From the NCBI RefSeq assembly GCF_000230715.2, contig NC_019792.1, positions 2,852,001 through 2,916,000 of the forward strand: a stretch of 64,000 bases of DNA, given 5' to 3'. Positions 3,114-35,933 of the stretch are shown here, in pieces. Each line of letters begins with the position of its first letter. Positions within the stretch are counted from its first letter, which is position 1. The notes below the pieces were generated by a model. The model was not told the origin of the DNA, searched no databases, and saw only the letters and a list, made by a program, of their open reading frames with translations. The stretch comes from Natronobacterium gregoryi SP2. GTDB lineage: Archaea; Halobacteriota; Halobacteria; Halobacteriales; Natrialbaceae. The position numbers were made by a program, and so were the translations under genes.

Positions 3114-3170
3114 GTGACGTTCACTTCGGTAGCCAAACCCTCTTACGCGCACGCTCCCCAGACGACGACA

Positions 3171-6035: not shown

Positions 6036-6080
6036 CGTTCGAACTCGAGCAGTCGGCCAGTACGGCTGGGCAGACAGTTT

Positions 6081-7242: not shown

Positions 7243-7431
7243 GACGGATTGCTGTACCTAGTACCGTCCCAACCGTCGACCGTCTAGTTGAGAGTTGGTC
7301 AAAACCGATCACGACTCTCGATCAGAAGTACAGCGCACTAGTCAGAGTTGACGGTTGGGCCGGTACTGTTCCCGTAGATCGCCAGAACGGGGTCAGCGAT
7401 CGGCGGTGATTGACTACAGGAAACTGCCTCA
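7240..7431. repeat. Family C repeat interrupted by a family A element
   Basis: The left piece (7240-7257) and right piece (7369-7431) together make one family C unit of about 81 bp, starting TGAGACGG and ending in TCA. Between them lies a family A copy. The next C unit starts at the same TCA (7429-7431). Confidence 0.65.
7258..7368. repeat. MITE-like repeat, family A (copy A2), nested
   Basis: Begins with CTAG and carries the family A inner block in the opposite orientation to A1 (AAAACCGATCACGA...CTCGATCAGAAG). The ends TACCGTCCCAACCGTCGAC and GTTGACGGTTGGGCCGGTA form a good inverted repeat. The right CTAG is decayed to CTGT. It sits inside a family C unit. Confidence 0.8.
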
Positions 7432-7512
7432 GACGGTTTCCTGTCCGTCAGCTTCGATGTAATCGCGCCCCGAAGCGGTTGCACCGGGACAGCGGTACGG
7501 CAATCCGTCCGA
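7429..7512. repeat. MITE-like repeat, family C (diverged copy)
   Basis: Starts TCAGACGGTTTCCTGT and ends GGACAGCGGTACGGCAATCC followed by GTCCGA, about 84 bp. The centre differs from C1 but resembles the copy at 33069-33152 (shared CCCGAAGCGGTTGCACCG). From 7513 to 7749 I see no gene and no other repeat; the promoter of the downstream flavoprotein must lie in its last ~60 bp. Confidence 0.7.
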
Positions 7513-7749
7513 GGCCGGACCCGGGCTCCTGTGGCGACGGCATCACACCCCGTAGGAGCACTGCATTTCGACGACCGATCGGACTGTCGCCGCGCGGGCG
7601 GTGGCAGGTACGGGAAAAGCAGGTCCGTGACGGCTGTCCGCCTGCAACTACTGTCGACCCTCTGTTCGTCGATCATCGACATTCCCGACAAATGAAGACG
7701 AGTTATTAGTCGGGAGGTCTGTGGGTGTGATAGCGACTCGAAGATAACC

Positions 7750-9138
7750 ATGTCTGGAAAGTACGACCTCGTCATCGTCGGCGGCGGGATCAGTGGCGCG
7801 TCCCTGCTGTATACGACCGCGACGTTTACTGATCTCGACTCGATCGCGCTGATCGAAAAAGAATCGGAGATCGCAGCGATCAACTCACACTGCACGAACA
7901 ACTCACAAACGCTTCACTTCGGCGACATCGAGACCAACTACACCCTCGAGAAAGCCGAAGACGTAAAAGAGGGGGCGGAACTGCTTGCGGGCTATCTCGA
8001 GCACTACGACCCGGACCGCGAGATGCACGACAAGCGCAGCAAGATGGTTCTCGGGGTCGGCGAGGAGGAAGTCACACAACTCGAGCACCGATACGAAGCG
8101 GAAGGGTTCGGCGATCTCTTCCCGAAACTCGAGCCGATCGATCGCGAGGAGATCGCCGAACTCGAGCCGAAGGTCGTCGAGGGACGCGATCCGGGGACGG
8201 AGATGCTCGCGCTTCAGACGCCCGACGGCTACGTCGTCGACTACGGCGAGGTGGCGAAGTCACTCGTCGACCGCGCCAGCGAAGAAGACGGCGTCGACAT
8301 CTACACTGGGACGGAAGTCGAGGATATCACGGAGACGACCGATGGGTACACGCTCTCGACGGACGACGGGCCGTTCGATTGTGCTGCCACCGTCGTCGCC
8401 GCCGGTTCACACAGCCTCCAGATGGCGAAGGAACTCGGCTACGGCGAGGACAAGGTGTTGCTCCCCGTCGCCGGGAGTTTCTTCCTTGCGGAGGACTTCC
8501 TGAACGGGAAGGTGTACACCCTCCAGATGAAGAAACTCCCGTTCGCCGCGGTCCACGGCGACGCGGACGTTCACGACGCCGGGAGTACGCGGTTCGGACC
8601 GACCGCAAAACTCGTGCCGACTCTCGAGCGTGGTCGTCTCTCGACCGTAAGCGATTTCTTCGACGTGTTCGGCCTGAACCCGTCCGCGTTTCTCAGCTAC
8701 GCCAACATCCTGGCTGACCGCATCCTCCTGCCGTACGTGCTGAAGAACCTCGTCTACGATCTTCCCGCGGTCGGGCCACGAGCGTTCCTCCCGCACGTCC
8801 AGAAAGTCGTCCCGAGCGCAACCCTCGAGGACATCGAACGGGCGAACGGGTACGGTGGCGTTCGCCCACAGATCGTCGACACCGAGAACCGCTCGCTCGA
8901 CATGGGTGAGGCGAAGATCGTCGGCGACGACATCATCTTCAACATCACGCCCTCACCGGGTGCCTCGACGTGTCTCAAAAACGCCATGCAGGACACGCAC
9001 ACGTTACTCGAGTTCTTCGACGAAGAGTACGCGTTCGACGAGGCGGCGTTCCGCGAGGACACTATCGAGAACTTCCCGCGGGCAAACGACGACGGCGTCG
9101 AGACGACGGCTGCCGATGCCGTCGCCACAGACGACTGA
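7750..9138 (+). CDS. FAD-dependent oxidoreductase, malate:quinone oxidoreductase-like
   Basis: The 462-residue flavoprotein opens with a Rossmann FAD motif, LVIVGGGISGASLL (about 7-20), with acidic E37 closing the adenine site (ALIEKESE). The stretch SHCTNNSQTLHFGDIETNYT (about 46-65) resembles the NN..GH..CE.NYT signature of malate:quinone oxidoreductases. A late segment, NITPSPGASTCLKNAMQDT, fits the C-terminal FAD-contact region. Likely role: membrane-peripheral oxidation of malate (or a similar 2-hydroxy acid) to feed quinone. L-2-hydroxyglutarate oxidase-like activity is the alternative. There are no transmembrane helices. Its TGA stop (9136-9138) is the first triplet of a family C repeat. 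Confidence 0.75.
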   Translation: MSGKYDLVIVGGGISGASLLYTTATFTDLDSIALIEKESEIAAINSHCTNNSQTLHFGDIETNYTLEKAEDVKEGAELLAGYLEHYDPDREMHDKRSKMVLGVGEEEVTQLEHRYEAEGFGDLFPKLEPIDREEIAELEPKVVEGRDPGTEMLALQTPDGYVVDYGEVAKSLVDRASEEDGVDIYTGTEVEDITETTDGYTLSTDDGPFDCAATVVAAGSHSLQMAKELGYGEDKVLLPVAGSFFLAEDFLNGKVYTLQMKKLPFAAVHGDADVHDAGSTRFGPTAKLVPTLERGRLSTVSDFFDVFGLNPSAFLSYANILADRILLPYVLKNLVYDLPAVGPRAFLPHVQKVVPSATLEDIERANGYGGVRPQIVDTENRSLDMGEAKIVGDDIIFNITPSPGASTCLKNAMQDTHTLLEFFDEEYAFDEAAFREDTIENFPRANDDGVETTAADAVATDD

Positions 9139-9295
9139 TACGGATTACTGTAACGATTTACCGGCGCAACCGCCGCCCGGGTCGCGGTTGTGCCGGAAAT
9201 GACTTACAGGAAACCGTCTGAGACGGTTTGCTGTAACTAGTTATCGCCGGTCGCCGACTCCGGGCGGCGGTCATTGACGACAGGAAACCGTCTGA
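9136..9295. repeat. Tandem pair of family C repeats
   Basis: Unit 1 is 9136-9221 and unit 2 is 9219-9295, sharing the TGA at 9219-9221; a further TGA lies at 9293-9295. Unit 1 has the same centre as C1. Unit 2 has a different centre (CGCCGGTCGCCGACTCCGG) but the same ends. A diverged half unit follows to about 9370. The first TGA is the stop codon of the flavoprotein gene. Confidence 0.85.
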
Positions 9296-9374
9296 GACGG
9301 GGTGGTGCGTCGTTTCCGGTGCAACCGCGACCAGTGCTGTTGCGGCGTCACCGACACACAGTCGTTCGTGTGAG

Positions 9375-9974
9375 TTACAACCGAAACGCACGGACGGTAT
9401 CGCGTTTCCCGGACTCGACTGTGACCTGGTCGAACCCTGTTTCCGTGAAGACGCGGCCCCAGTCGCGGTAGTAGAGGGGGAGGCCGTCGTCGACGTAGGT
9501 CTCGTCCGTCTGCTTTTCGTCTCCCTCGTTTTCGACAGTAACGAGGAGGTCAGCCGTGACGCGGGAGAGTTCGTCGAACAACCACTCTACCTCCGGATGG
9601 AGGTGTTGCAGCGTCTCGACCGAATAGATCGCGTCGAACCGATCCTCGTCGAACTCCGTGACGACGTCTTCGATCGCCCGGGCGTAGAACGTACCTTCGG
9701 CGGCGAGGTCCGGGTACGTCCGTTCCATGACGTCGAACGCGTCGTCGTTGATCTCGATTCCCGCCAACTCGTCGAACCCGTGGTCACAGAGGTGCGCGAG
9801 GTGTCGGCCCGAGCTACAGCCCAGTTCCAGAACCGCGGCATCTCGCCCGACGAACCGCTCGAGGAGTCGTCGCACCGTCTCGCTCGTCTCGTCGGGACCG
9901 TAGTAGGCGTAGTACTCCGGCGAGTACTCCCCCGACCGCTTTGCCCACTCGTGGCGGGTGTCAGTAGAATCCAC
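9375..9974 (-). CDS. Class I SAM-dependent methyltransferase
   Basis: The 199-residue product has the class I methyltransferase order: motif I VLELGCSSGRHLAHL (about 48-62), the acidic end of strand 2 in AGIEIND, motif II/III region DRFDAIYSVETLQHLHPE, and a C-terminal DWGRVFTETGFDQV strand-helix. Short N-terminal cap, no membrane segment, cytoplasmic. The methyl acceptor cannot be told; the ...VETLQHLHPE pattern is typical of small-molecule or protein methylases of the UbiE/Methyltransf_11 type. It is a single gene ending close to the family C array. Confidence 0.8.
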   Translation of the reverse strand: MDSTDTRHEWAKRSGEYSPEYYAYYGPDETSETVRRLLERFVGRDAAVLELGCSSGRHLAHLCDHGFDELAGIEINDDAFDVMERTYPDLAAEGTFYARAIEDVVTEFDEDRFDAIYSVETLQHLHPEVEWLFDELSRVTADLLVTVENEGDEKQTDETYVDDGLPLYYRDWGRVFTETGFDQVTVESGKRDTVRAFRL

Positions 9975-10208
9975 GTTCGTCGTCGACCGCGGAACCGTAA
10001 AGTATCGCTGGTTCCGTCCCCGGACCCGGGTTACTCTCGAGCGGCCACCGACCGCGAGCCGCGATCGGAATGTATAATCCTGCCGTTAATTACGCTCTCG
10101 TGCAAATAAACGATATTATATCCACCAAAACAGGTTTTGTGGGCGGCATCTCGAGAAATCTACTATCGGAAGACAGGTATCGAACAAAACACACGGCAGA
10201 TATAAATT

Positions 10209-10223
10209 CGAAATGCTTAATGG
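10209..10223 (+). promoter_or_regulatory. Probable cspA promoter (BRE/TATA)
   Basis: CGAAATGCTTAAT fits the haloarchaeal BRE plus AT-rich TATA pattern. It lies about 30 nt before the cspA ATG at 10249, which predicts a very short leader. The surrounding 10070-10210 is unusually AT-rich and has no gene. Confidence 0.4.
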
Positions 10224-10248
10224 TGTGGTGGCTCTCGGAAGAGATACA

Positions 10249-10443
10249 ATGGCAACCGGAACGGTTGACTTCTTCAACGACACGGGCGGTTACGGATTCA
10301 TCGACACCGAGGACGCGGACGAGGACGTTTTCTTCCACATGGAAGACGTTGGCGGCGAGGACCTCACCGAGGGAACCGAGATCGAGTTCGAAATCGAAGA
10401 GGCCGAGAAAGGACCACGAGCGACGAACGTCGTTCGTCTGTAA
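10249..10443 (+). CDS. cspA: Cold shock protein, CspA family
   Basis: A 64-residue single cold-shock domain: ATGTVDFFNDTGGYGFIDT carries RNP1 (GYGFI) and DVFFHM carries RNP2, followed by a strongly acidic second half as expected for halophiles. It binds single-stranded RNA or DNA and acts as an RNA chaperone. An in-frame ATG exists 12 codons upstream (10213), but it overlaps the TATA-like element and adds non-family residues, so 10249 is chosen. Confidence 0.93.
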   Translation: MATGTVDFFNDTGGYGFIDTEDADEDVFFHMEDVGGEDLTEGTEIEFEIEEAEKGPRATNVVRL

Positions 10444-10522
10444 ACGCACATCTCGCCACGCGGCGAGTCACAACCGGCTTTTCTGACAGTTCACTCGAGA
10501 GCGACAGCAAGACGCCAACCGA

Positions 10523-12124
10523 TCACACCGGCGGCGAGATTTCCGCCGGGTCGTGGTCGCCACAGCCGTGTTCGTAAACCCGCTCTACGTCTCTGCTTCG
10601 GTCGGACGGTTCGTCGATCGTCTCGAGTGTGACGTCCTCGACGACGTAGTATACGTTGACGTGGGTGATCGTGGCGTCGCGGTCGTTCTCCCAGTTCGAA
10701 CAGAGGTGTTCGGCCAGCGACGCTGCGACGGTGTCGCTGCTTCGGACGCTACTCATGTAGAACCGCTCTCTGTACGTGTCGAACTGTTTTTGTAACTCTT
10801 CGTACGGTCTATCGTAGGACAGTTCCCGATCGTTGTAGACGTCGATCCGTTCGCCGTCCCGGGTCTCCGCGGGGAAGACGTAGTACTGGTCCGATGTCCG
10901 GGGATGCGGAGCGAAGACGCTCCAGTCAGGTTGATCGACGGAGACGACTTCGGCTCGCTGTTCGATCCGGTCGGCGGGACCGTCTTCCTCGTCGACGAAG
11001 TCGGCGAGTGGCACGTACGTGAGAGCGGGAACGATCAGAATCGAAACGACTGCGATAGCCAGGGCGACGCTGTAGACACTCCTCGTGAGCCAGTTTGGGA
11101 CCGCAGGGGCCGAACGCTCGAGTCGGAACGACGGGAACAGGCGGGCAACTTGCTCCAGTCTGGGGCGGACCTCGGTGGACTGGATCTGCTCGAGCGACGC
11201 GGACCGTGCGATCGTCTTCGCGTCCGCCCAGAACGACGCTTGCAGGAACAAGAGCAGGCCCGCAATCGCGACGTAGGGGAACGCGCCGATCCGGACGGTG
11301 ATCGCGAAGGAGGCGTGGCCGCCGACGAACATCGCGACCAGCGCCGTCCGCGCTCTCCCCCGAAGCAAAAAGAGCAGCCAGGAGAAAAGCAGCATATAGT
11401 ACCACGTTAGGCCGCCGTACTGGAGCATCGTGGGGAAGTTCCGCATGACGTCTCCGAGGAGGAACGTCGTGTTGTCGAGCCCCATGATGAGCGGCGTCGC
11501 CTCCCCGCCGATCCACAGCTCGGATTCGGTCTTGTGGTAGCCGTTGAGGAAGTACATGAACACGATCTGTGCCAGTATCGCGGCGGAGGCGACGCTCGTG
11601 ATGCTCTCTCGAGGAGCGCGGTCGGCGTGGACGGCGTCGACCGACCACCGTTCCCCGAGCGGGAGGAAGATGGCCCAGAACAGCAAGAGCCGAAAGAGGA
11701 CGTCCGCGTAGCTCAACACCAGCGGGTTGTGGTGGTCCAGCGAGACGACCAGCAGGAAAGCGAGTATCGTCGCAACTCGCGTTCGGTAGCCGACGGCGAG
11801 CTGGAAGCCCACTAGCGCGGTGAGGGCGAAGAGTGCCGCGATGGCAGTCGAACTCGTCGTGAAATAGTAAATCGAGAACGCGCCGTCGGCCGACGCCTCC
11901 ATCGCCAGCGACTGTGGGACGACACCGTCTTCGGTGTACATGAACTCGAAATTTCGGGCACGAAGCAACACGTCGGCGGCGACGAGGAGCCCGGCACCGA
12001 TCCGAAAGGCCGCGAGCGAACGCGTATCGATCCGTACCGACGCAGGATCGAGGTGTGTCGGGTTCGCCGTGCGCTCTCTGACTCGTGTCGGTAGTGTCGT
12101 GAGATAGTGGCTGATCAGGCCCAT
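10523..12124 (-). CDS. HTTM domain (vitamin K-dependent carboxylase-like) membrane protein
   Basis: The 533-residue integral membrane protein matches the HTTM (horizontally transferred transmembrane) family, which shares a helical core with gamma-carboxylases. After an ~35-residue soluble start come DTRSLAAFRIGAGLLVAADVL (38-58), the FMYTEDGVVP turn, and a series of helices to about residue 380, including the family-like segment LDHHNPLVLSYADVLFRLLLFW. A soluble C-terminal domain (~380-533) with WSVFAPHPRTSDQYYVFPAE is likely extracytoplasmic. Function is unknown in archaea; carboxylase activity should not be assumed. It is not in an operon. Confidence 0.85.
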   Translation of the reverse strand: MGLISHYLTTLPTRVRERTANPTHLDPASVRIDTRSLAAFRIGAGLLVAADVLLRARNFEFMYTEDGVVPQSLAMEASADGAFSIYYFTTSSTAIAALFALTALVGFQLAVGYRTRVATILAFLLVVSLDHHNPLVLSYADVLFRLLLFWAIFLPLGERWSVDAVHADRAPRESITSVASAAILAQIVFMYFLNGYHKTESELWIGGEATPLIMGLDNTTFLLGDVMRNFPTMLQYGGLTWYYMLLFSWLLFLLRGRARTALVAMFVGGHASFAITVRIGAFPYVAIAGLLLFLQASFWADAKTIARSASLEQIQSTEVRPRLEQVARLFPSFRLERSAPAVPNWLTRSVYSVALAIAVVSILIVPALTYVPLADFVDEEDGPADRIEQRAEVVSVDQPDWSVFAPHPRTSDQYYVFPAETRDGERIDVYNDRELSYDRPYEELQKQFDTYRERFYMSSVRSSDTVAASLAEHLCSNWENDRDATITHVNVYYVVEDVTLETIDEPSDRSRDVERVYEHGCGDHDPAEISPPV

Positions 12125-22626: not shown

Positions 22627-22995
22627 TCATTCGGCGAGTCCCTCGATCAGGTACGTGGCGGACTCGAGGTTCGTCGCTAGCGCGGTGTCGTGGACGTCAC
22701 AGATCCGCAAGAGTGCGGAGATGTCTGGCTCGTGTGGCTGGGCACGAAGGGGGTCTCGGAGAAAGACGATTCCGTCGAGGTTCCCTGCGGCTACCTCCGC
22801 ACCGATCATCAGGTCACCACCGAGTGGTCCCGACTCTTTCCGACCGACATCGAGGTCGGTCTCCTCGAGCAGCCGTTTCCCGGTCGTCCCGGTCGCGATC
22901 AGGTCGTAGTCCCGGAGTTGGCTCTCGTGTGTCCGTGCGAACTCGACGAGGTCTGGTTTCTTCTCGTCGTGGGCGATGAGTGCGATGCGAGTCAT
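22627..22995 (-). CDS. mgsA: Methylglyoxal synthase
   Basis: The 122-residue product converts dihydroxyacetone phosphate to methylglyoxal plus phosphate. Family signatures are IALIAHDEKKPDLVEF (catalytic region start), the phosphate-binding ATGTTGKRL, SGPLGGDLMIGAEVA with the catalytic Asp, and FLRDPLRAQPHEPDI. ATG 22995 gives the standard family length. The frame extends upstream but into arginine-rich non-family sequence. It is divergent from a decayed glyoxalase-fold gene. Confidence 0.93.
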   Translation of the reverse strand: MTRIALIAHDEKKPDLVEFARTHESQLRDYDLIATGTTGKRLLEETDLDVGRKESGPLGGDLMIGAEVAAGNLDGIVFLRDPLRAQPHEPDISALLRICDVHDTALATNLESATYLIEGLAE

Positions 22996-23597: not shown

Positions 23598-24537
23598 GGC
23601 TCTGTTGAATCGCTGTAAGGCGGTGGATTTCACTGTTTGACGGCACGTTTGATGTTGTAGACGACACACATCAGAGCGATTTCACGGAACTCTCGATACC
23701 AGCTACGCGCTCGCACGGCGTAGCCGAGCGAGCGCTTGACGGCGGAGTTGACGGTTTCGGTCATTGACCGCTGAGCGTACCGATCTTCGTCAATACGGGC
23801 GTTGTGTGCGTGATCGTACGGCACGAAGATCCGGTATTTGATCAGCGGGCGAATGTCGAGTTCACGGAGTCGGTCGCGGAGTTGTTGCTTGTCATAGCCC
23901 TTGTCAGCGGCTAGAGACCGCAGATCGCCCGCATTTCGGCGGGCAATCTGCTCACAGAGGTCTGCGTCGCTACCTTCTAACGTTGTCGAGCAGTGAAGAT
24001 CAAGCACAGCTTGCGTTGCTGTGTCTACGAGCTTTGTCACTTTGAGCGTCTGAACGCGATAATTCGTTCGTTGGCAGTGGTGACGACTGGCACGATCTCG
24101 TTCATAGAATGTTGCATCGATTGCAGCATGTTCAGAGAGGTCGTGCAGCTGCGCCGACTGGCGCAGCAGCACTCGACAGACGCTCATCTCGATCCGATCA
24201 AACGCCTTACACAGCGTGGAAGGTGCGGGGAGATCGGCCTCGTCAAAGCCGATCTCCCCTGTTATTTGCGTCATTTCCTTCAGCAGATCGATCGTCATTC
24301 GGTAGGAGGTATCGAGGTAAATTCGGAGACAATGCAGCGAAACGAGGGCATAGTCGGCGAACCCGCCGCCACCCTTCGGGGCGGCGGATTCGTCTCGTTC
24401 ACCCGTAACTCTTTGAGCAATCGAGACACAACGCTCGGTGAAGCGGGAGATTTGTGTTATGGACAACCAAATTTTCCCGCTTCAACTCCTTCGATTTACT
24501 GACCTTCCCCGACACCGTCTAGTGATTCAACACAGCC
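23598..24537. mobile_element. IS5-family insertion sequence
   Basis: About 940 bp with imperfect inverted ends GGCTCTGTTGAATCGCTG (left) and GGCTGTGTTGAATCACTA (complement of the right), enclosing one transposase gene. No matching direct repeat is visible at the two boundaries, so the flanks have probably been rearranged. Confidence 0.75.
23630..24466 (-). CDS. IS5-family transposase
   Basis: A 278-residue DDE transposase. The N-terminal region has FADYALVSLHCLRIYLDTSYR. The catalytic core has AIDATFYERDRASRHH (first Asp), SLAADKGYDKQQLRDRLRE (second Asp) and the Glu in RSMTETVNSAVKRSLGYAVRAR. The order and spacing fit the haloarchaeal IS5 group. It is apparently intact. A truncated relative ([17 protein letters not shown]) lies just beyond its right end. 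Confidence 0.82.
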   Translation of the reverse strand: MSITQISRFTERCVSIAQRVTGERDESAAPKGGGGFADYALVSLHCLRIYLDTSYRMTIDLLKEMTQITGEIGFDEADLPAPSTLCKAFDRIEMSVCRVLLRQSAQLHDLSEHAAIDATFYERDRASRHHCQRTNYRVQTLKVTKLVDTATQAVLDLHCSTTLEGSDADLCEQIARRNAGDLRSLAADKGYDKQQLRDRLRELDIRPLIKYRIFVPYDHAHNARIDEDRYAQRSMTETVNSAVKRSLGYAVRARSWYREFREIALMCVVYNIKRAVKQ

Positions 24538-25168: not shown

Positions 25169-26971
25169 ATGAGTGAAATCGCCCTTGCGGCCGATTTCGC
25201 GATCATCGTCGTCGTGGCGACGATCATCGGGCTAATCGCCCGACAGACGGGCCAGCCGACGATCATCGCGTACATCATCACGGGGATCATCCTCGGGCCG
25301 GTCGCGTTCGACATCGTGACCGACGAGGGGCTGGTCGAGTTGATGGGCAATCTCGGCTTTGCATTCCTGCTGTTCCTGCTTGGCCTGAAGATGCGCTTCG
25401 AGGACATCCGTGAGATTCTCCCGGCCGTGACAAACGTCGCCATCGGTCAGACCGTACTCCAGACTGCGCTTGCGTTCACCGTGGCGTGGGCACTCGGGTT
25501 CGGCACCGAGGAGATCCTCGTCATCGCGCTGGCCACCGTCTTCGGCGCGACGCCGATCATCGTCAAGATCCTCACCGACAAAGACGAGATCACGAGCCTG
25601 CCGGGGAAGATCGACGTCGGCGTCCTCATCGTCCAGGACATCTACCTCGTCGTCGTCCTCGCGCTGTTTGCGACCGACGAACTCGGCGGCGCGGCCGACA
25701 TCGCGTCGACGCTCGGCGTCATCCTCGTGATGATGTCCTTTATCGCCATCTTCTCGCTGTTTTCCTCTCGGTACGTTCTCCCCGGACTCTTCCGGCGCAT
25801 CGCGGACAACAAGGACGTCTTCCTCGTCGTCGCCATCGCCTGGGCATTCCTGTTCGTCGCCATCGCCGAAGCCACCAACCTCGATCCGAAGGTCGGCGCG
25901 TTCCTCGCCGGCCTAAGCATCGCCCAGCTCCCCTACAGCAAGGAACTTGAGGATCGGGTCACCCCGATCACGGACTTTTTCATCCTCGTGTTCTTCGCCA
26001 CCATCGGCCTCCAGATCGACGGGCTCTCGAGTCTGCTGGCCCACTGGTGGGAGGCAATCGTCGCCTCGACCGTCCTGATGGTCGGTAACTTCTGGATCAT
26101 GTTCTACCTGATCGATCGCGAAGGGTTCGACGTCGAGACGTCGTTTCTGGCCTCGATCAACATGGTGCAGGTCAGCGAGTTCTCGCTGATCGTCGGCGCG
26201 CTCGCGATCGAACAGGGCCTCATCGGATCGGACGTACTGGGCTATTTGAGTCTGATGGCACTGTTGACGATGGGGCTCTCGACGTACATCATCTCGTACA
26301 ACTACGCGATCTACGCACGGCTCGAGCCGTGGTTCCGTCGGTTCGAGTCCGACGAGAGAAAAGACGCCGAGATCAGCACCTACGACGGCCACGCCATTGC
26401 GATCGGCTACGACGAGATCACCGAGCGGGCCCTGCCGCGACTCGAGGCGGAGTTCGACGACGTCGTCATCATCGACCGTCGAACTGACCACATCGAGGAA
26501 CTCGAGGAGGAAGGCCGGTACGAGTACGTTTTCGGCGACTTCCGCCACACCGAGGTTCGGAAGGAGGCGAACCTGAACGCGGCCGACTTCGTGTTGAGTT
26601 CGAGCGTCGAACGGGAGGTCAACGAGGCGTTGCTCAGGGAGGTCGACGACGAGGCGACGGTGTTCGTCGAGGCCGAGCGGATCGACGACGCTCGCGCGCT
26701 GTACGACCGCGGTGCCACCTACGTGATCATGAGTACGCATCTGGCCGCCGAGAAGGTAAGCGAGTACGTCGAACTGTACGTCACCGATCGCGACCGGTTC
26801 GACGACGCTGTCGCCAGCGATGTCGACGTGATCGAGGCGCGGCGACGCCGCGGCCGACGGCGATTCGGGGAGGACGAGCCCGGCTCGAGTCCGGGTGTCG
26901 ACGGGGACCCGATCGGTCCCAGTCCCGACTCGCTCGAGGATCGCCGCTCCGGAGGTGAGTTCCGTGACTGA
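25169..26971 (+). CDS. Cation/proton antiporter, CPA2 (KefB-like), subunit with degenerate RCK
   Basis: A 600-residue product from ATG 25169: about 12 transmembrane helices (residues ~3-400) starting IALAADFAIIVVVATIIGLI, then a cytoplasmic RCK/TrkA-N-like domain (~408-560) and a polar tail. The TM part has the CPA2 pattern RQTGQPTIIAYIITGIILGP and TDKDEITSLPGKI. The nucleotide-binding GYGxxG of RCK domains is replaced by GYDEIT (413-418), so NAD(H) binding is doubtful. Likely Na+ or K+ for H+ exchange. The next antiporter starts inside its last codons with its own strong ribosome site, implying joint production. An ATG 13 codons upstream is less likely. Confidence 0.88.
   Translation: MSEIALAADFAIIVVVATIIGLIARQTGQPTIIAYIITGIILGPVAFDIVTDEGLVELMGNLGFAFLLFLLGLKMRFEDIREILPAVTNVAIGQTVLQTALAFTVAWALGFGTEEILVIALATVFGATPIIVKILTDKDEITSLPGKIDVGVLIVQDIYLVVVLALFATDELGGAADIASTLGVILVMMSFIAIFSLFSSRYVLPGLFRRIADNKDVFLVVAIAWAFLFVAIAEATNLDPKVGAFLAGLSIAQLPYSKELEDRVTPITDFFILVFFATIGLQIDGLSSLLAHWWEAIVASTVLMVGNFWIMFYLIDREGFDVETSFLASINMVQVSEFSLIVGALAIEQGLIGSDVLGYLSLMALLTMGLSTYIISYNYAIYARLEPWFRRFESDERKDAEISTYDGHAIAIGYDEITERALPRLEAEFDDVVIIDRRTDHIEELEEEGRYEYVFGDFRHTEVRKEANLNAADFVLSSSVEREVNEALLREVDDEATVFVEAERIDDARALYDRGATYVIMSTHLAAEKVSEYVELYVTDRDRFDDAVASDVDVIEARRRRGRRRFGEDEPGSSPGVDGDPIGPSPDSLEDRRSGGEFRD
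26950..26966 (+). promoter_or_regulatory. Shine-Dalgarno and GTG start for the second antiporter
   Basis: GGAGGTGA (26951-26958) lies five bases before GTG 26964, inside the end of the first antiporter gene (stop 26969-26971). The match to anti-SD is near perfect, which is unusual among the mostly leaderless genes here and marks translational coupling. The mirror gene pair at 30796 uses the same arrangement. Confidence 0.75.
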
Positions 26972-28697
26972 ACAGCTCGTCGTCACGCTGGCCGTCGTCT
27001 TCGTGGCCGCGGGACTGCTGTCTTTGGTCGCCAACCAGTTTGGGCTCTCCCCGATTCCGTTTTATATCATCGCCGGGTTGATCGCCGGGAGCTTCGAGAC
27101 GGTTACCCAGGAGGAAATCATCGTCCTCGCTCAGTGGGGCATCGCCTTCCTCGTGTTCGTCTTCGCCATCCGGATCGACTTCGGTGACCTCGAGTCGATC
27201 CTTCGTGACGCGGAACTCGCGGCGGTCACGCAACTGATCGTCGTCGCACCGCTCGCGTTCGCCGTCGGCTACGTGTTCGGGGACCTCTTCGGGTTCGAAA
27301 ATCAGGTCCGCAACGCCGTCTACTTCAGTGCGGCCGTCGTGTTGAGTTCCTCGCTGGTCGGTGGCGTCGTGCTCGGTTCGGAGATCCGTCAAAATCTCGT
27401 CCACGGACGACTGGCGTCGTCGGTCCACTTCTTCGACGACCTCGTCGCGATTACGTTGCTGTTGATCCTCAGTACGGAGGTCGTGACGGCCGACGCGATC
27501 GCAGCCCAGATCGGGTACGGCGTCTTGTTCGTCGTCGCCGGCTTGCTCATCTACCGTCACGGATTCCGACTGCTGGTTCGACTCGCCGACGGCGACGGCG
27601 AACTCGTGTTGGTGGGCAGCATCTCGATCCTGATCACGTTCATTGCGGCGGCGGAGTACGTCGGCCTCTCGATCGTCGTCGGCGCGTTCGCGGCTGGGAT
27701 TGCCATCCGGAGCGACGGCACCCAGGCTCTCGACGTACAGAACGGGATCGACTCGATTACGGACTTCTTCGTCGCTATCTTCTTCGTCACCGTCGGCGCG
27801 CTCGTCGTCGTCCCGTTCGTCGACCTCGACTGGAGCGCGTCCATCGAGGTTCTGTCGATCGCAGCCGCACTCGCGGTACTCGTACTCGTCTTGAACCCGG
27901 TCGTTCACACTCTCTCGTTCGTGTCCGAAGGATACGACGCTCGAACGGCGTTTCTGGCTAGCTCGAGTCTCAACCAGGTCAGTGAGTTTGCGCTGATCAT
28001 CGCGATCCAGGCGCTAATCCTGACGGAGACGATCGCAGCGCCGATGTTCGACGCGATCATCCTCGCAGCCGCAGCGACGATGGTGCTGACGTTCCTGGCC
28101 CGACGGACCGAAGACGCCGTCTACGAGACTATCGTCGCCAGGCTCTTCCGCGGACAACGGACCCGGAAGGTCGACGATCGAAGCAGCGTCGACGACCTCG
28201 CCGACCACGTCGTCGTGGTCGGCTACGGCCGGATCGGCCGCCGCGTCGTCGAGACACTCGAGGAATTAGACTGTCCGTACGTCGTCCTCGAGAACGATCC
28301 GGTGCTGTGGGACGAGCTCGACGTCGAATGCCGAAACTACGTCCTCGGGGACGCACTGTCGGCGTATCCGTGGGAGAAAGCACAGCCCGAAGACGCGGCG
28401 CTGATCCTCTCGACCGTCGATCACCGACCGGTGTCGGAGGCGGTCCTCGAGCGCGATCACGAGACCGACGCCGACATCCTGTTGCGATCCGAATCCGCCG
28501 AGATTGCGGGCGAACTGCTCGAGTCCGGCGCGACCCACGTCGCCGTCCCGAACGTCCTCGCGGGCGAGCAGTTGCTCGCCACCGTCGACGCCCTCGCCGC
28601 GGGGGAGACAGACCCCGAGACGCTCGAGCGCGAGCAACGGGAGTACTTCCAGGCGCTCGAGCGGTACGGGTTCGCGACGCGGAACGAACGGGTCTAG
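26964..28697 (+). CDS. Cation/proton antiporter, CPA2, subunit with intact RCK
   Basis: A 577-residue product from GTG 26964. About 12 membrane helices (to ~390) include PIPFYIIAGLIAGSFETV and a conserved SSSLNQVSEFALIIAIQALI. A TrkA-N/RCK domain follows with an intact dinucleotide motif VVVGYGRIGRRVVE (GxGxxG at 420-425) and acidic VLEND. It is probably the nucleotide-sensing partner of the upstream subunit. The stop TAG (28695-28697) lies within the CTAG border of repeat A3. Confidence 0.88.
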   Translation: MTEQLVVTLAVVFVAAGLLSLVANQFGLSPIPFYIIAGLIAGSFETVTQEEIIVLAQWGIAFLVFVFAIRIDFGDLESILRDAELAAVTQLIVVAPLAFAVGYVFGDLFGFENQVRNAVYFSAAVVLSSSLVGGVVLGSEIRQNLVHGRLASSVHFFDDLVAITLLLILSTEVVTADAIAAQIGYGVLFVVAGLLIYRHGFRLLVRLADGDGELVLVGSISILITFIAAAEYVGLSIVVGAFAAGIAIRSDGTQALDVQNGIDSITDFFVAIFFVTVGALVVVPFVDLDWSASIEVLSIAAALAVLVLVLNPVVHTLSFVSEGYDARTAFLASSSLNQVSEFALIIAIQALILTETIAAPMFDAIILAAAATMVLTFLARRTEDAVYETIVARLFRGQRTRKVDDRSSVDDLADHVVVVGYGRIGRRVVETLEELDCPYVVLENDPVLWDELDVECRNYVLGDALSAYPWEKAQPEDAALILSTVDHRPVSEAVLERDHETDADILLRSESAEIAGELLESGATHVAVPNVLAGEQLLATVDALAAGETDPETLEREQREYFQALERYGFATRNERV

Positions 28698-28803
28698 TAC
28701 TATCCCAAGCATGGACCGACTAGTTGAGAGTTGGCCAAAACCGATCACGATTCTCGATCAGAAGTGGAGTGCACTAGTCAGAGTAGACTTGGGACGCTAC
28801 TAG
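28694..28803. repeat. MITE-like repeat, family A (copy A3), supplies two stop codons
   Basis: A 110-bp CTAG-to-CTAG unit that exactly fills the space between two convergent genes. The left CTAG contains the TAG of the rightward antiporter; the right CTAG, read on the minus strand, gives the TAG of the leftward small membrane gene. Inner block as in A2. Confidence 0.88.
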
Positions 28804-29009
28804 AGCGACAATCCCGACACTGGGCCGCCGAAGTACTCGTGGACGCCAACGACGAGTATCAGTCCGGCGACGAACAGCGGACCGGCGACGATCGTCGAGA
28901 GGTCGATCGCGCCCGCCACCCCGAGTGCGCCGACGACCAGCAGTCCGACGCCGGCCGCGTAGACGAGCAGGTTTCGACCGAAGGCGAGTAGCCTGTTGAT
29001 TTCGAGCAC
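28800..29009 (-). CDS. Small membrane protein, two helices
   Basis: About 69 residues from GTG 29009 (an earlier GTG at 29054 is in frame). There are two hydrophobic helices, RNLLVYAAGVGLLVVGALGV and TIVAGPLFVAGLILVVGV, with the end EYFGGPVSGLSL. It follows the leftward antiporter pair on the same strand with an 89-bp gap, so it could be a small accessory of that transporter, though this is only context. Its TAG lies in repeat A3. Confidence 0.55.
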   Translation of the reverse strand: MLEINRLLAFGRNLLVYAAGVGLLVVGALGVAGAIDLSTIVAGPLFVAGLILVVGVHEYFGGPVSGLSL

Positions 29010-29098
29010 GATCGAACGAACACACAGGAAGCGAAAAGGGCTGCTGATCCGCACCGATCGAAACCCGCCGCCGTCGAACCTGTAGTGGCGCGAGAGTG

Positions 29099-30796
29099 TC
29101 AGCGGAGGTGAAGCGGTACGTAGTCGGCTCGTCGCTCGAGTTCGGCTCGCTGCTGTTCCCGGAGGTCTTTGCGGGTCAGGTCCCCGTCGAGCAGTTCGCG
29201 AACCTGCTGGGTCAACTGCTGGCCCGCGAGCAGATCGGGCTGGCCGACGTAGAGCGCGCCCTCGTCGAGTAGTTCCAGGGCTGTCGCCCGATCGGACGCT
29301 CGCAGCGTCGCCTCGGCGTCGGTATCAAGCGAGAGGATACGCCGCGAAACCGGCTGAGAGTTGACTGTCGAGACGACGAGTTTTGCGTCGGCAGCGTTCG
29401 CTTTCTCCCAGGTGTAGGTTTCCATGGCGTCGCCGACGACGACGGCCTCGCACTCCCTGGTGATCTCCTCCCGTCGGGCAGGGTCGTTCTCGATGACCAC
29501 GTAGGGGTGACCCATCTCCTCGCAGGCCTCGACGAGGGTTCGTCCCTGTCGACCGTAGCCGACGATGATAACGTGATCGGCGAGGTCCGCGGGCACGTCG
29601 CTCCACTTGTCGATCCGGTCGTGGCGGCCGGTGATTACGCCACGGTCGGCGAGCGTGCGGTAGATTTGCTCGTCGTACCGGTGGGTCAGACTCGAGGTTA
29701 CCATCGTTATCGCGGCCGCGAGGATGATCGCGTCGAAGACCGCTTGGCTCACGGCATCGAGCACGACGGCCTGGATTGCGATGATCAGCGCGAACTCGCT
29801 GACCTGATCGGTGTGGAGACTGGCAAGCGTCGCCGAACGGGCCTCGTAGCCGCGGGCGACGAGGATCACCGTGGTGAGAACTGGCTTTACGACTGCGGTC
29901 AGAACGACGAGACCGACGACGAGCACCAGTTTCTCGATGGACGCAGCCCACGTGATGTCGCCGACAAAGGGGAAGACGACGAGTGCACCGATCGTCACGA
30001 AGAAGATAGCGACGAAGAAGTCCCTGATCGACTGGAGGCCGTTGAACAGCCCGAGGTAGTCGACGGGATCGTACCGGACGGCGAGCCCGGCGGCGAACGC
30101 ACCGACGACGATCGAGATGCCGGCGAACTCGGCCGCACCGACGAACACCGTGAGCAACGCGACGACTCCCAGAATCATGAGTTCGTCCGAGTCACCGGCC
30201 AACTGGCCGATGAAGTCGAACAGGTACCGATTGACGAACACGGCACCCAACAGCAACGCCACCCCGGCTGCAAGCGCCGGTCCGACGTAGCCAATCTCGA
30301 GCGAACCCGCCCCCAGAAGTAGGATAAAGAGAATAGCAAGCAGGTCCTGGACGAACTGGATCGATCGGACGAGTCGGCCGCGAACGGGATCGGAGTTGAC
30401 GGTGCGTTGCAACAAGGCGGTTCCGACAATCGTCGACGAGAGTGCAGCCGCGATCCCAAGGTAGACTGCTTCCATCGGGGGGACGCCGAGGACGATGCCG
30501 AACCCGACACCGAGCGACCCGACGACCAGAATTTGGCCGAGCGCCGCGAATTCACCGTCGGCAAGCACCGTTCTCACACCCGAGAGATCGATTCGGGTTC
30601 CGAAGGTAAACACCAGCAACGCGATCCCGTAGTATGCGAGCTCGAGCAGAAGGTTCGTGTCGTCGATGAACCCTCCGGCGACGATCCCTGCGAGGACCAG
30701 AAACGGCACCGTCGGGAGCTCGAGCCGGTTCGCCACGAGCAGGAACGGCCCCGCGGCCAGGAAGATGATCGCGACTGCCGTAAGCAGGTCAGTCAT
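29099..30796 (-). CDS. Cation/proton antiporter, CPA2, subunit with intact RCK (second pair)
   Basis: A 565-residue product from ATG 30796, preceded by GGAGGTGAG seven bases upstream, inside the end of the gene before it (overlap 8 nt). It has membrane helices to ~385 with LHTDQVSEFALIIAIQAVVL, closely parallel to the gene at 26964, then an RCK domain with HVIIVGYGRQGRTLVEACEE (GxGxxG from 413). It is the second member of the leftward antiporter pair, mirror image of the rightward pair. Confidence 0.88.
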   Translation of the reverse strand: MTDLLTAVAIIFLAAGPFLLVANRLELPTVPFLVLAGIVAGGFIDDTNLLLELAYYGIALLVFTFGTRIDLSGVRTVLADGEFAALGQILVVGSLGVGFGIVLGVPPMEAVYLGIAAALSSTIVGTALLQRTVNSDPVRGRLVRSIQFVQDLLAILFILLLGAGSLEIGYVGPALAAGVALLLGAVFVNRYLFDFIGQLAGDSDELMILGVVALLTVFVGAAEFAGISIVVGAFAAGLAVRYDPVDYLGLFNGLQSIRDFFVAIFFVTIGALVVFPFVGDITWAASIEKLVLVVGLVVLTAVVKPVLTTVILVARGYEARSATLASLHTDQVSEFALIIAIQAVVLDAVSQAVFDAIILAAAITMVTSSLTHRYDEQIYRTLADRGVITGRHDRIDKWSDVPADLADHVIIVGYGRQGRTLVEACEEMGHPYVVIENDPARREEITRECEAVVVGDAMETYTWEKANAADAKLVVSTVNSQPVSRRILSLDTDAEATLRASDRATALELLDEGALYVGQPDLLAGQQLTQQVRELLDGDLTRKDLREQQRAELERRADYVPLHLR

Positions 30797-32546
30797 CGAG
30801 CTCACCTCCGAGGCGGTCCCGATCGGACGGGATCGGGTCCGGCTTCTCGAGCAGTTTGACGTCGCTGTCCATCGCTTTCACCAGGGTGTCTTCCTCGTCC
30901 TCGAGGTATGCCCGGAGGTATGTTGCGAGTCTGTCGGCTGCGAGATGTGGGGTCATGATGACACAGTGGGCACCGTTCGCGTAGAGGTCGCGCGCGTGTT
31001 CGATCTGTTCGGCCTCAACGAAGACGGTTGCGTCCTCGCTCACTTCCCTGAGCAACGCCTTGTTCACTGCTACTTGGACCGACCAGGAGAGGACGAAATC
31101 GGCCTTTTTGACGGCCGCGTCTTTCCGTATCGTCGAGTTTCGGAAGTCACCGTAGATCGCGTCGTATCCCTCCTCCTCGAGCGTTTCGACGTGGTTTACC
31201 GTCCGATCGACGACGACGACATCTTCGTATCGGTCGGCGAGTAGTGGGAGCGCGTTTTTCGTCACGTCGTCGTAGCCGATGACGACGGCGTGGTCGCGAT
31301 ACTCCTGCTTGCCGCCCTCGAACTCGCCGTCACCAGTCCACCGTTCGAGTGTCGGCTCGAACCGGTCGAACAGCGCGTGGTTGAATTCGACGAAGTAGAC
31401 GGAGACACTCATCGTGAAGATTGCGAGGAGAGTCATGAACCCGAGCACTTCTGGCTCGATGAATCCGCCCTCGAAAGCGACGGCCGCAACGATGATGCCG
31501 AACTCGCTGACCTGGATCATGTTGATCGAACCGAGGAAGGTCGTCTCGGTATCGAACCCTTGCCAGTCGATCAGATAGAAGAAGATGACGAACTTCACCG
31601 GCATCAAGATCAGCGCGGCGACGATCGCCTCCTGCCAGTACTCGAGCAACTGGGCGGCCTCGAGGTCGAGCGCGACCGAGACGAAAAACACCATGACGAA
31701 CAGGTCGGTCAGCGGGTTGACCCGGTCTTGGAGTTCCTTGCTGTAGGGGAGCTGGGCGATGGCCAGGCCCGCCATGAACGCGCCCATCTCGATCGAGAGG
31801 TATGCTTCGATGCCGAAGGGGGCAAGGAAGAGGTTGATGTTATCGGAGACGAAGACGAACAGGAACGCCCACGAGAGAGCGACGAGGAAGAAGACGTCTT
31901 TGTCGTCGGCGATGCGTCTGAAGATTGTCGGCAGCACGGATCGGGAGGCCCCGATGGCTGCGATCGTGATGATTGCGACGAGGACGAGCACGACGCCAAG
32001 GGTCGTGGCAACCTCGGCAAGATCGTCCGGGCGGCCGGCCGCGAGCACTGCCAGGATGATGACGACGACGATGTCCTGGACCAGCAAGACGCCGACGTCG
32101 ATCTTCCCGTGTAACGAGGTCGCCTCGTCTTTGTCCGTGAGCATCTTGATGACGACTGCCGTCGAACTGTACATCACCGCGAGCCCGATGAGAAACGCCT
32201 CGAGAAGACCGAAATCGAGCGCCAGTGCCACGCCCATCCCGGCGAGGAAGACCGCGGTCATCTGCGGAATCGAGATCTTGACGATCGGCGAGAGGACGTG
32301 ACGCACCTCGTCGAGGCGCATCTTGATTCCAAGCAAGAACAGCAAGAACGCGAGTCCGAGTTCCGAGAGCAACTCTGTGAGTTCGCTGACCTCGACGACA
32401 CCCAGGACTGCCGGTCCGAGCACCACCCCCGCCAGGATGTAGGCGATGATCGTCGGTTGGCCGGTTCGCTTCGCGAGGAATCCAGCTAGCGTCGCACCGA
32501 GGACGATGACAGCGAGATCGACGGTGAGTACTACCTCGGAGACCAT
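30789..32546 (-). CDS. Cation/proton antiporter, CPA2 (KefB-like), subunit with degenerate RCK (second pair)
   Basis: A 585-residue product with the same plan as the gene at 25169: KRTGQPTIIAYILAGVVLGP, LLFLLGIKMRLDEVRH, LTDKDEATSLHGKIDVGVLL, and a C-terminal RCK-like domain in which the Gly-rich loop is GYDDVT (from 424) instead of GYGxxG. A minus-strand TATA-like CGTTAATTCG (32571-32580) is about 29 nt above ATG 32546, giving the promoter of the leftward operon. Ion preference (Na+ or K+) is not visible in sequence. Confidence 0.88.
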   Translation of the reverse strand: MVSEVVLTVDLAVIVLGATLAGFLAKRTGQPTIIAYILAGVVLGPAVLGVVEVSELTELLSELGLAFLLFLLGIKMRLDEVRHVLSPIVKISIPQMTAVFLAGMGVALALDFGLLEAFLIGLAVMYSSTAVVIKMLTDKDEATSLHGKIDVGVLLVQDIVVVIILAVLAAGRPDDLAEVATTLGVVLVLVAIITIAAIGASRSVLPTIFRRIADDKDVFFLVALSWAFLFVFVSDNINLFLAPFGIEAYLSIEMGAFMAGLAIAQLPYSKELQDRVNPLTDLFVMVFFVSVALDLEAAQLLEYWQEAIVAALILMPVKFVIFFYLIDWQGFDTETTFLGSINMIQVSEFGIIVAAVAFEGGFIEPEVLGFMTLLAIFTMSVSVYFVEFNHALFDRFEPTLERWTGDGEFEGGKQEYRDHAVVIGYDDVTKNALPLLADRYEDVVVVDRTVNHVETLEEEGYDAIYGDFRNSTIRKDAAVKKADFVLSWSVQVAVNKALLREVSEDATVFVEAEQIEHARDLYANGAHCVIMTPHLAADRLATYLRAYLEDEEDTLVKAMDSDVKLLEKPDPIPSDRDRLGGELDD

Positions 32547-33068: not shown

Positions 33069-33152
33069 TCGGACGGGTTGCTGTCCGTCAGTGCCGGCAC
33101 ACTCGCGACCCGAAGCGGTTGCACCGAGACGTCGGGACAGTCATCCGTATCA
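33069..33152. repeat. MITE-like repeat, family C
   Basis: An ~84-bp unit with ends GACGGGTTGCTGTCCGTCAG and CGGGACAGTCATCCGTA, bounded by TCG (decayed) and TCA. The right TCA (33150-33152) read on the minus strand is the TGA stop of the FnIII-repeat gene. Confidence 0.78.
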
Positions 33153-35339
33153 GCATCCGCTCCGGTTCTTCTCTGCTTTCTTCGCCCACTTTTGGGCCTT
33201 CCTCGTCTGCTTTTTCCGTTTGCGCTTCGCGCGCTTTGCCGCCGGTTTCGCGCGCTTCTTTCGCAGCCGCTTCTTGTCCGGCGGTCGAATGACTGGTTCC
33301 GGCTCGGGCACAGGTTCCGGCACCGGATCGGGCTCGGGTATCGGCTCGGGCTCGTCCTTGGTGAACGCGAGAATGTCGCCAGCGACCGCGATACCGTCGG
33401 CGACGACGACGGCCCGGAACTCGTATCGCAGACCCGTCTGGAGGCCAGCGATCACCGCGTCGAACGCGGTCGGCGCTGCGAGCGGCTGGAACTCCGTCTC
33501 GAGCCACTCGTCGGTTCCAGCAACCCGATACTGGAAGAAGGCGTTGACCTCGTCGAAGTCACCGAGGTCGACGAGTTCGCCGTTGAGGGTGGCCGTCGAC
33601 TCGTTGACATCCGTCGCGGGCTCGGTGACGACAGTCGGGAGATCGACGTCGGGTGCCTCTTTCGTGAACGTCAGCGTCTCGCCGGTCGCTACCACGTCGT
33701 TGGCGACGGCGACGGCCCGGAACTCGTACTGGAAGCCTTCCTCGAGACCCGATATCTCCGCGCTGAACGCGGTCGGTCCCGTTACCGTCGTCGGAGCAGT
33801 CCCGAGCCACTCGTCGGCGCTGACGACCCGATACTGGAAGAAGACGTCCGCGTCGTCGAAGCCACCGAGGTCGACGAGTTCGCCGTTGAGGGTGGCAGTC
33901 GACTCGTTGACGTCAGTCGCGGGTTCGGTGACGACCGTCGGCAGGTCTACTGGCGGCTCTTCTTTCGTGAACCGCTGGGTCGGGCCGACGACGACCGACT
34001 CGTTGGCGACGGCGACGGCCCGGAACTCGTACTCGACGCCGGGCGTCAGCCCGACTGCCTCGGCGCTGAATGGGCCGGGTGCGGTGAGCGTCTGGGACGC
34101 CGTCGTCGTCCAGTCCTCGGCCATCCCAGCGATCCGGAATTGGAAGAAGACCTCGACCTCGTCGAACGTCCCGAGGTCGACGAGTTCGCCGTTGAGCGTC
34201 GCACTCGCCTCGTTTATCTCGGTCGCGGGCTCGGTACCGACCGTCGGGAGCGTCACCTCCGGATCGGGATCTTCCTTCGTGAACGTCTGGACCTCGCCGA
34301 CCGTCCGGACGCCGTTTGCGACCGCGACCGCACGATACTCGTAGTCGTTGCCCGGAACGACGTCTATCTCCGCGCTGAACGGACCAGTTCCGGGGAGTAC
34401 CTGTGGAGCGGTCTCGAGCCACTCTTCGCTCCCGACGATACGGTACTCGAAGAAGACCTGGATGTCGTCGGCAGCGAAGTCACCGAGGTCGACGAGCATA
34501 CCGTTGAGCGTGGCGGTCGACTCGTTGACGTCGGTCGCTGGCCCCGTCATGACGGTCGGCTGGACGACGGGCTCGAGTTCCTTTCTAAACGTTCGTATCG
34601 AACCAGTTACCGTCGTAGTATCCGGCGCGACGGCGACGGCCCGGAACTCGTACTCGAGACCGCTCTCGAGTTCCGGGACGGTGGCGCTGAACGGTCCGGG
34701 AGCGGAGAGGTCCAGGGGTTCGGTCGGCAACCACTCAGTCGTTCCGGCGACCCGATACTCGAAGAAGACGTCGACAGTTTCGAAACCGCCCAGACTGGTC
34801 AGTTCGCCGTTGAGCGTCGCACTCCCGTCGTCGACCTCGGTCGCCGGGTCAGTGATGACCGTCGGGCGCTCCGGCGGATCGGGGTCTTCGACGCAGTCGC
34901 CTTCGCTGATCGTCAGTATCGGATTCGCACCGCCGCCGTTGAACTCGACGAACGCGGACTCGACGGTGCCACCACCCGGTTTGAACACTTCGAACTGGAT
35001 CGTCCCCTGGGGACCGCCGGGGAAGAATCCCTGGACCGTCTGGGTCGTCCCGTCAGTAAAGGTGACGGTGAGCTGGGCGGGCAACTCGAGGGGTGGCGCA
35101 GGTTCGCCTGGCTCTAGCGCGCCGCCGGGCGTGAGTACCCACTTCCAGAATCCCAGTTCGCCCGGGCAGTCCTGTGTCGCGTTTTCGCTTCCCTGTCCGC
35201 CCCACTGGAGGATGCGATCGAAGCCCTCTCCTGGTTCCTGCTGAGCGCCGGCCGTACCGGCACCGAACAGGCCGCCCAGTCCGATGACAGTTCCACCACT
35301 CGCAGCGAGGAATCGGCGTCTGTTGGTCGAATCGACCAT
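33150..35339 (-). CDS. Tat-secreted protein with five FnIII-like repeats and a basic tail
   Basis: The 729-residue product from ATG 35339 starts MVDSTNRRRFLAASGGTVIG, a Tat signal with RRRF and cleavage near AGAQQ (~33). Residues ~34-150 form a novel N-terminal domain (GFFPGGPQGTIQFEVFKPGG). Then come five ~100-residue repeats (from ~159, 263, 365, 465 and 562), each starting PTVxTxPATxVxxxxATLNG and containing VFFxYR and YEFRAVAVA, a fibronectin type III-like surface fold. The tail is a Pro-Glu linker followed by about 45 residues rich in Lys and Arg (KKRLRKKRAKPAAKRAKRKR), ending GC. It is likely a cell-surface adhesin or binding protein. The basic tail is very unusual for a haloarchaeal exported protein. 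Confidence 0.85.
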   Translation of the reverse strand: MVDSTNRRRFLAASGGTVIGLGGLFGAGTAGAQQEPGEGFDRILQWGGQGSENATQDCPGELGFWKWVLTPGGALEPGEPAPPLELPAQLTVTFTDGTTQTVQGFFPGGPQGTIQFEVFKPGGGTVESAFVEFNGGGANPILTISEGDCVEDPDPPERPTVITDPATEVDDGSATLNGELTSLGGFETVDVFFEYRVAGTTEWLPTEPLDLSAPGPFSATVPELESGLEYEFRAVAVAPDTTTVTGSIRTFRKELEPVVQPTVMTGPATDVNESTATLNGMLVDLGDFAADDIQVFFEYRIVGSEEWLETAPQVLPGTGPFSAEIDVVPGNDYEYRAVAVANGVRTVGEVQTFTKEDPDPEVTLPTVGTEPATEINEASATLNGELVDLGTFDEVEVFFQFRIAGMAEDWTTTASQTLTAPGPFSAEAVGLTPGVEYEFRAVAVANESVVVGPTQRFTKEEPPVDLPTVVTEPATDVNESTATLNGELVDLGGFDDADVFFQYRVVSADEWLGTAPTTVTGPTAFSAEISGLEEGFQYEFRAVAVANDVVATGETLTFTKEAPDVDLPTVVTEPATDVNESTATLNGELVDLGDFDEVNAFFQYRVAGTDEWLETEFQPLAAPTAFDAVIAGLQTGLRYEFRAVVVADGIAVAGDILAFTKDEPEPIPEPDPVPEPVPEPEPVIRPPDKKRLRKKRAKPAAKRAKRKRKKQTRKAQKWAKKAEKNRSGC

Positions 35340-35933
35340 ACGCGAACGGCGACAGGAGGGAGTATTGTTATCTGTCTTATGTGAATCGAACGGTGGCTGA
35401 TACGTTCCTGTATCCCGATATTTCGGTCGTATCGACGCCGAGCCGTGACCGGCCGATGCGGACGTCGGTTCTCGGCCGTCATTGAGTCGCGTCGGGCGCG
35501 CGACGGTCGCTCGCCGCCCGAGGTCACAGTCGGCACCGACGGCTCGAGTCACTCACACTCCTGTCGGGAATCGAACGGCGTTCTGTCCAGCGGCTGTGGC
35601 CGAACGGTCCGGTTTCCATCGGGTCAGCGACGACTGTCGAGATGGAGTCGGCCCGCTCGAGGTGGTCGCCTGCGTGGTGCTGTACGCTCGGCTTTCTTCT
35701 CGCCCGGCGACAGAAAGACGACCGTAGCCGTTCATAGACCCTCGTTTCCGGACTGGATCGAGGCGATAGCCGGTGCCTGCAATACGTCTGTTCTCGTGAC
35801 TATTTTCACTCGCTGACGGTCAGCACGGTAGTATCGTCGTGAGAAGCGGTAGTTCACCGATTACAAACCGTCAGTGTATTGGAGGCTTCCTCACTCACCG
35901 GAGCCGGCGATGGCCGGTGGCCGGGAGACCACC
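35340..35933. other. Intergenic region between two divergent secreted-protein genes
   Basis: It must hold both promoters. The minus-strand AT-rich stretch around 35365-35385 (CACATAAGACAGATAACAAT) is a candidate for the leftward gene. Small frames here are arginine-rich or interrupted and look like chance. No repeat of families A-C is seen. Confidence 0.4.

Follow-up and report, generated by a model that had tools for sequence, protein, structure and literature searches.

Characterized relatives of the antiporter pair

The closest described systems are the E. coli antiporters KefC and KefB. KefC is encoded by a single gene and forms a homodimer that binds AMP in both of its RCK domains, with R409, D429, H430, D449, D472, and R496 as ligands (PMC11150392), and the glutathione adduct of methylglyoxal acts as an activator of KefB (PMC10224563). 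As the structurally characterized RCK antiporters, e.g., KefC, are homodimeric, the roles that their two RCK domains play in gating are inseparable. RosB/YbaL-like CPA2 antiporters are likewise described as single-gene transporters, and NapA is a one-gene homodimer without an RCK domain. The Mrp/Pha (CPA3) systems, which occur in haloalkaliphiles and contain paralogous antiporter-like subunits, provide a precedent for hetero-oligomeric cation/H+ antiport.

We analyzed a stretch of 64,000 nucleotides (the window) of the Natronobacterium gregoryi SP2 chromosome, a single haloarchaeal contig of 3,788,356 bases, in which two operons each encode an upstream (A) and a downstream (B) antiporter subunit. 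Both subunits have the domain order of KefC/KefB; A keeps the residues of the K+ site and B most of the AMP pocket. In contrast to KefC, however, two obligately linked genes are involved and one of the two pockets is charge-inverted. Like RosB/YbaL-like proteins, the pair has a shorter C-terminal part behind the RCK domain and an AMP-type pocket; with NapA it shares the antiporter-domain fold and, in many B subunits, the DD motif. The Mrp/Pha subunits are unrelated to A and B, are encoded in operons of six to nine genes and are not known to contain a PF00999 or an RCK domain. Genome papers label the genes studied here merely as Kef-type or cation:proton antiporters, and a literature search of incomplete coverage found such an A-B pair nowhere described. 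With one pocket rewritten and the other kept, this natural pair would allow the role of each RCK domain to be tested alone.

Two convergent A-B operons in the N. gregoryi window

Open reading frames and sequence features confirmed the predicted layout of two convergent operons, A1-B1 on the plus and A2-B2 on the minus strand, in which A precedes B, the two genes overlap by 8 nt and the ribosome site of B lies inside the upstream gene. Likewise, the Rossmann loop reads GYDxxT in both upstream and GYGRxGR in both downstream subunits, as originally predicted. The features are:

25169..26971, plus strand: A1, upstream subunit with Na_H_Exchanger and TrkA_N (RCK) domains (open reading frame, Pfam, AlphaFold2 model, PDB match KefC 8bxg)
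26405..26422, plus strand: altered Rossmann loop GYDEIT of A1 (sequence; relative to KefC G408 to D, R409 to E, G411 to T)
26951..26958, plus strand: GGAGGTGA, ribosome site of B1 within A1 (read from sequence)
26964..26971, plus strand: 8-nt A1/B1 overlap GTGACTGA (sequence)
26964..28697, plus strand: B1, downstream subunit with Na_H_Exchanger and TrkA_N (RCK) domains and FDD ion motif (open reading frame, Pfam, AlphaFold2 model, PDB match KefC)
28221..28241, plus strand: intact Rossmann loop GYGRIGR of B1 (sequence, KefC alignment)
29099..30796, minus strand: B2, downstream subunit of the second pair, QD ion motif (open reading frame, Pfam, alignment)
29540..29560, minus strand: intact Rossmann loop GYGRQGR of B2 (sequence, KefC alignment)
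30789..30796, minus strand: 8-nt A2/B2 overlap ATGACTGA (sequence)
30802..30809, minus strand: GGAGGTGA, ribosome site of B2 within A2 (sequence)
30789..32546, minus strand: A2, upstream subunit of the second pair (open reading frame, Pfam)
31260..31277, minus strand: altered Rossmann loop GYDDVT of A2 (sequence, KefC alignment)

The spacing between GGAGGTGA and the start of B is 5 nt in both operons. Across 93 distinct pairs, 77 show the 8-nt overlap, and an SD-like sequence accompanies it in 69 of these. Six of the nine PF00999 genes of the genome form three A-B pairs, and the third pair, located elsewhere (L010), shares both the overlap and the asymmetry (GYDEIT / GYGRQGR). A scan of the window against Rfam gave no match.

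The convergent double-pair arrangement is kept across several genera of the family (L090, L091, L092, L096 at 1061-11951, L097, L099, and L105), and three A-B pairs follow each other in a row in L096 (1061-11951). Beside the operons, at 33150-35552 on the minus strand, the window encodes a protein of about 800 aa that contains several fn3-like domains in repeat and ends in a tail rich in Lys and Arg.

All four proteins match PF00999 with 98-183 bits (cut-off 26.2) and PF02254 (TrkA_N) with 51-60 bits (cut-off 23.8). For the curated CPA2 subfamily TIGR00932, scores of 151-166 bits (A) and 68-78 bits (B) stay below the cut-off of 238.3; A and B are CPA2 relatives below this curated line. The KefB/KefC equivalogs NF002973/NF002924 gave 73-132 bits for A1, A2, and B2, compared to cut-offs of 804/752, and no hit for B1, and the RosB/YbaL-type equivalog NF007950 (84-129 bits, cut-off 700) was not reached either. 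AlphaFold2 monomer models (A1, pLDDT 79.6 and pTM 0.65; B1, pLDDT 88.7 and pTM 0.85) have KefC as their best PDB match, with E-values of 1.7e-20 for A1 and 7.7e-17 for B1, and the B RCK domain matches the YbaL TrkA-N structure 3fwz.

A and B belong to separate ancient clades

Identity of A1 to the other two A proteins of the genome amounts to 73% and 50%, compared to only 24-27% to the B proteins; between B1 and the other two B proteins it amounts to 61% and 44%. In a tree of 40 non-redundant pairs together with KefB, KefC, and methanogen relatives, all A subunits form one clade (SH-aLRT 100) and all B subunits a second (99), and the branching within the two is largely alike. Thus, like subunits group across operons, A with A and B with B, which settles a question raised by the original prediction. 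The distance matrices of A and B are correlated (Mantel r 0.82; the maximum of 1000 permutations was 0.27). By this phylogeny the A-B pair is ancient and both clades are monophyletic. Recent tandem duplication of one antiporter was considered as the origin of the pair and is ruled out by the ancient separate clades in the tree.

One partner exchange is supported: A69 and A79 belong to the ST (ST/QD) clade and B69 and B79 to the DD clade, and the order is still A-B (loci L043 and L112). Of the solo relatives, a methanogen antiporter comes closest; its loop (GMGRFG) is intact, no further antiporter gene adjoins it, and it matches A with 290 bits, compared to 84-192 bits for the others, but its long branch makes its position in the tree unsure.

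The A-B pair at the gene level

Among 145 Halobacteria genomes, 24 carry A, with 47 A genes in total, and 46 of these have an adjacent B gene on the same strand. The 47th (G129) lies at a contig end, where the start of B is present as a fragment. A survey of 391 genomes, in which the best three candidates per genome were scored, found A and B signals in the same 65 genomes. The constant co-occurrence expected from the original prediction is thus borne out, and upstream subunits on their own, which would speak against it if frequent, are limited to contig or fetch ends and one chimera. Within the named contigs, the A genes for which no B was detected all run up to the end of a contig or of the fetched stretch. 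The chimera is the sole solo case among the 391 genomes and belongs to one of the 65 (G387); it joins the N-terminal half of A to the C-terminal half of B and is probably a deletion relic. It lies at L150 5877-7247 (plus strand), has the loop GYDREGQ, and the long match contains a stop. As judged from these genomes, the pair is effectively obligate at the gene level. That the pairing is a local accident of one genome is ruled out by the two surveys.

Co-inheritance could also arise if the pair were a mobile or niche cassette, passed on by linkage and transfer for alkaline life, with A and B functionally independent. The patchy distribution (65/391 genomes), the several copies per genome and the plasmid copies would fit such a cassette, as would host names that mostly refer to soda-lake or alkaline habitats. 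Linkage alone, however, leaves unexplained the near-absence of solo A or B genes across deep divergence, the conserved coupling geometry, and the fact that the supported partner exchange again produced an A-B pair, and we regard this explanation as very improbable. The hosts are mostly soda-lake or haloalkaliphilic species as judged from the names of the carriers, with Halobium salinum and Natrinema versiforme as exceptions. Pairs or fragments were also seen on contigs binned as Salinibacteraceae, Bacteroidetes, an uncultured euryarchaeote, Nanohaloarchaea, and Halobacteroidaceae (L049, L050, L060, L068, and L069), reflecting either transfer or mis-binning.

The RCK nucleotide pocket is kept in most B subunits and rewritten in A

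We aligned the 93 A-B pairs to KefC, whose residue numbers serve as reference. Both later glycines of the Rossmann loop are lost in every A subunit: G408 is replaced by D in 85, S in 5, and N in 3 of the 93, and G411 by T in 84. Taken together with the overlap in 77/93 pairs, this loss in 93/93 A subunits indicates that neither the layout nor the asymmetry is due to chance. Position 409 is acidic in 73/93 A subunits, position 496 is Glu in 81/93, and position 430 is Arg in 84/93, where KefC has R409, R496, and H430. In contrast, B keeps G408 in 80, G411 in 91, R409 in 76, R496 in 89, and D449 in 92 of the 93 pairs. Counting four features (G408, G411, R409, and R496), all four are present in 73/93 B subunits and none in 84/93 A subunits, and 71/93 pairs combine zero in A with four in B. 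The KefC glutathione-contact residues R416, R498, and R516 are conserved in neither A nor B of the 93 pairs.

All five pocket positions of A are acidic in 71/93 subunits and four or more of them in 82/93, whereas the same positions hold two acidic residues in KefC and most B subunits. Neutral decay of the A loop was considered and is ruled out, as the replacements are themselves conserved (D408 in 85/93, T411 in 84/93, and E496 in 81/93). As the replacement residues are conserved, the term "dead", used in the original prediction for the A domain, understates the A pocket, whose charge is inverted and kept so. The predicted contrast between the subunits stands in so far as B retains the nucleotide site and A has other residues in its place, and the RCK domain of A may be a changed sensor that is not simply dead.

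The asymmetry itself, predicted to be conserved, is not universal, since both pockets are degenerate in about a tenth of pairs. These comprise one divergent clade with an E-D ion motif in B (e.g., L014 684-4032, L024 1299-4737, L028 1388-4883, L031 1418-4856, L118, L120, L121, L122, and L123) as well as L060.

Ion-binding sites of both membrane domains

The ion-binding Asp equivalent to D156 is present in 92/93 A and 93/93 B subunits; both subunits therefore look transport-competent, and both probably are. Essentially all A subunits keep the KefC K+ ligands Q155, D156, T127, and S336, so that their site is Q-D with Thr, like the K+ site of KefC. Position 155 of B is D, Q, or E, giving D-D, Q-D, or E-D sites. 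At the position of Lys307 in TM11, A carries Asn in 59 and Lys in 33 cases, and in B the D-D sites go with Asn and the Q-D sites with Lys; the position of the NapA TM11 lysine is Asn in 39/44 B subunits with D at position 155. Ion-site types are mostly matched between A and B, but not strictly: a few A partners are of another type, indicating that A-B coupling is not residue-strict.

These sites bear on whether A and B could be two separate homodimeric antiporters that are needed together, for instance because one carries K+ and the other Na+, or because nucleotide controls just one of them. A and B alike possess a full antiporter domain with an RCK domain and keep the ion-binding Asp, the ion-site chemistry differs between A and B in many pairs (QD versus DD), and the characterized relatives KefC and NapA are homodimeric (PMC11150392). 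However, near-absolute pairing without solo copies would be unusual for transporters that can be regulated from separate loci, and a KefC-like A:A dimer of RCK domains would place E409/E412 near E498 of the other chain. Checking the inter-protomer contacts of KefC, we found that 65/93 pairs have an acidic A498 facing a basic B409, a suggestive pattern that one ancestral event could explain; the general acidity of haloarchaeal proteins makes this charge argument weak. Mutual information across the two subunits (92 pairs, Neff 39) gave scattered top column pairs and is too shallow to inform on this point. Overall, we consider two homodimers unlikely, though a serious alternative.

A putative heteromeric antiporter

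The most economical reading of the gene-level data, and one that we consider probable, is that A and B form one A:B heteromer. Gene architecture, pairing, residue replacement, and co-inheritance are observed directly, and from them we infer a physical heteromer, its ligands, its ion, and its physiology. A and B would be two diverged subunits of a KefC/NapA-type cation/H+ antiporter, most likely joined in one A:B heteromer. Translational coupling, through the ribosome site of B in the last codons of A and the gene overlap, would supply the subunits in equal amounts, and both membrane domains probably transport. On the cytoplasmic side, the two RCK domains of the pair would differ, with the B pocket and its KefC AMP residues as the probable nucleotide site, whereas the acidic cluster of A would not support KefC-style phosphate binding and could be structural or bind cations or protons. 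The likely job of such a heteromer would be regulated efflux of K+ or Na+ with entry of H+, which would acidify the cell interior in response to alkaline stress or to the electrophile methylglyoxal.

In a more speculative version, which we put forward tentatively and think unlikely as a whole, the A:B pair would be an obligate heterodimer with two sensors: the B RCK domain for nucleotide, and the acidic pocket of A, with up to five Asp/Glu compared to two in KefC, for cations or pH. Gating of cytoplasmic acidification would then integrate the energy state with stress from alkali or electrophiles.

Genomic context of the A-B pairs

Three further features of the window lie beside or between the two pairs:

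22627..22995, minus strand: methylglyoxal synthase gene mgsA (TIGR00160/NF003559 above cut-off)
23630..24466, minus strand: DDE transposase between mgsA and A1
28800..29054, minus strand: probable two-TM protein of 84 aa, start uncertain, between the two pairs (tblastn matches near pairs)

The mgsA gene is the only PF02142 match of the genome and lies 2.2 kb from A1. In 19/93 pairs, which span three pair types (DD, ED, and QD), mgsA precedes A in the same orientation, usually no more than 0.2 kb and in no case more than about 0.8 kb away. Part of this linkage is due to a gene order inherited from common ancestors. Anywhere in the fetched stretch, mgsA occurs at about 27 loci, the window included (L015, L018, L021-L026, L028-L037, L040, L041, L055, L095, L096, L099, L101, and L105).

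Methylglyoxal synthase homologues are present in most haloarchaea, glyoxalase activity was detected in all eight haloarchaeal species examined, and in Haloferax extracts the glyoxalase works with gamma-glutamylcysteine (PMC7278568). As an alternative role, mgsA may serve aromatic amino-acid synthesis (PMC4162585). The position of mgsA beside many A-B pairs parallels the activation of KefB by a methylglyoxal adduct (PMC10224563), and together with the haloarchaeal glyoxalase it makes a Kef-like acidification role for the pair plausible by analogy. If true, the pair would be a candidate for cytoplasmic acidification in haloalkaliphilic archaea that is tied to methylglyoxal metabolism. No KefF/KefG-type ancillary oxidoreductase was recognized among the neighbour families found at four or more loci, as judged from this recurrent-neighbour list alone.

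The gene of the 84-aa protein follows B2 and is oriented towards B1. It reached no Pfam or NCBIfam family above cut-off, and tblastn located homologues between or beside pairs at many related loci, making it a possible accessory protein. On the Natrinema versiforme plasmid pNVE500 (L151), the pair is found among genes for TrkA-C, a universal stress protein, an MscS mechanosensitive channel, and diadenylate cyclase, a neighbourhood that points to K+ homeostasis.
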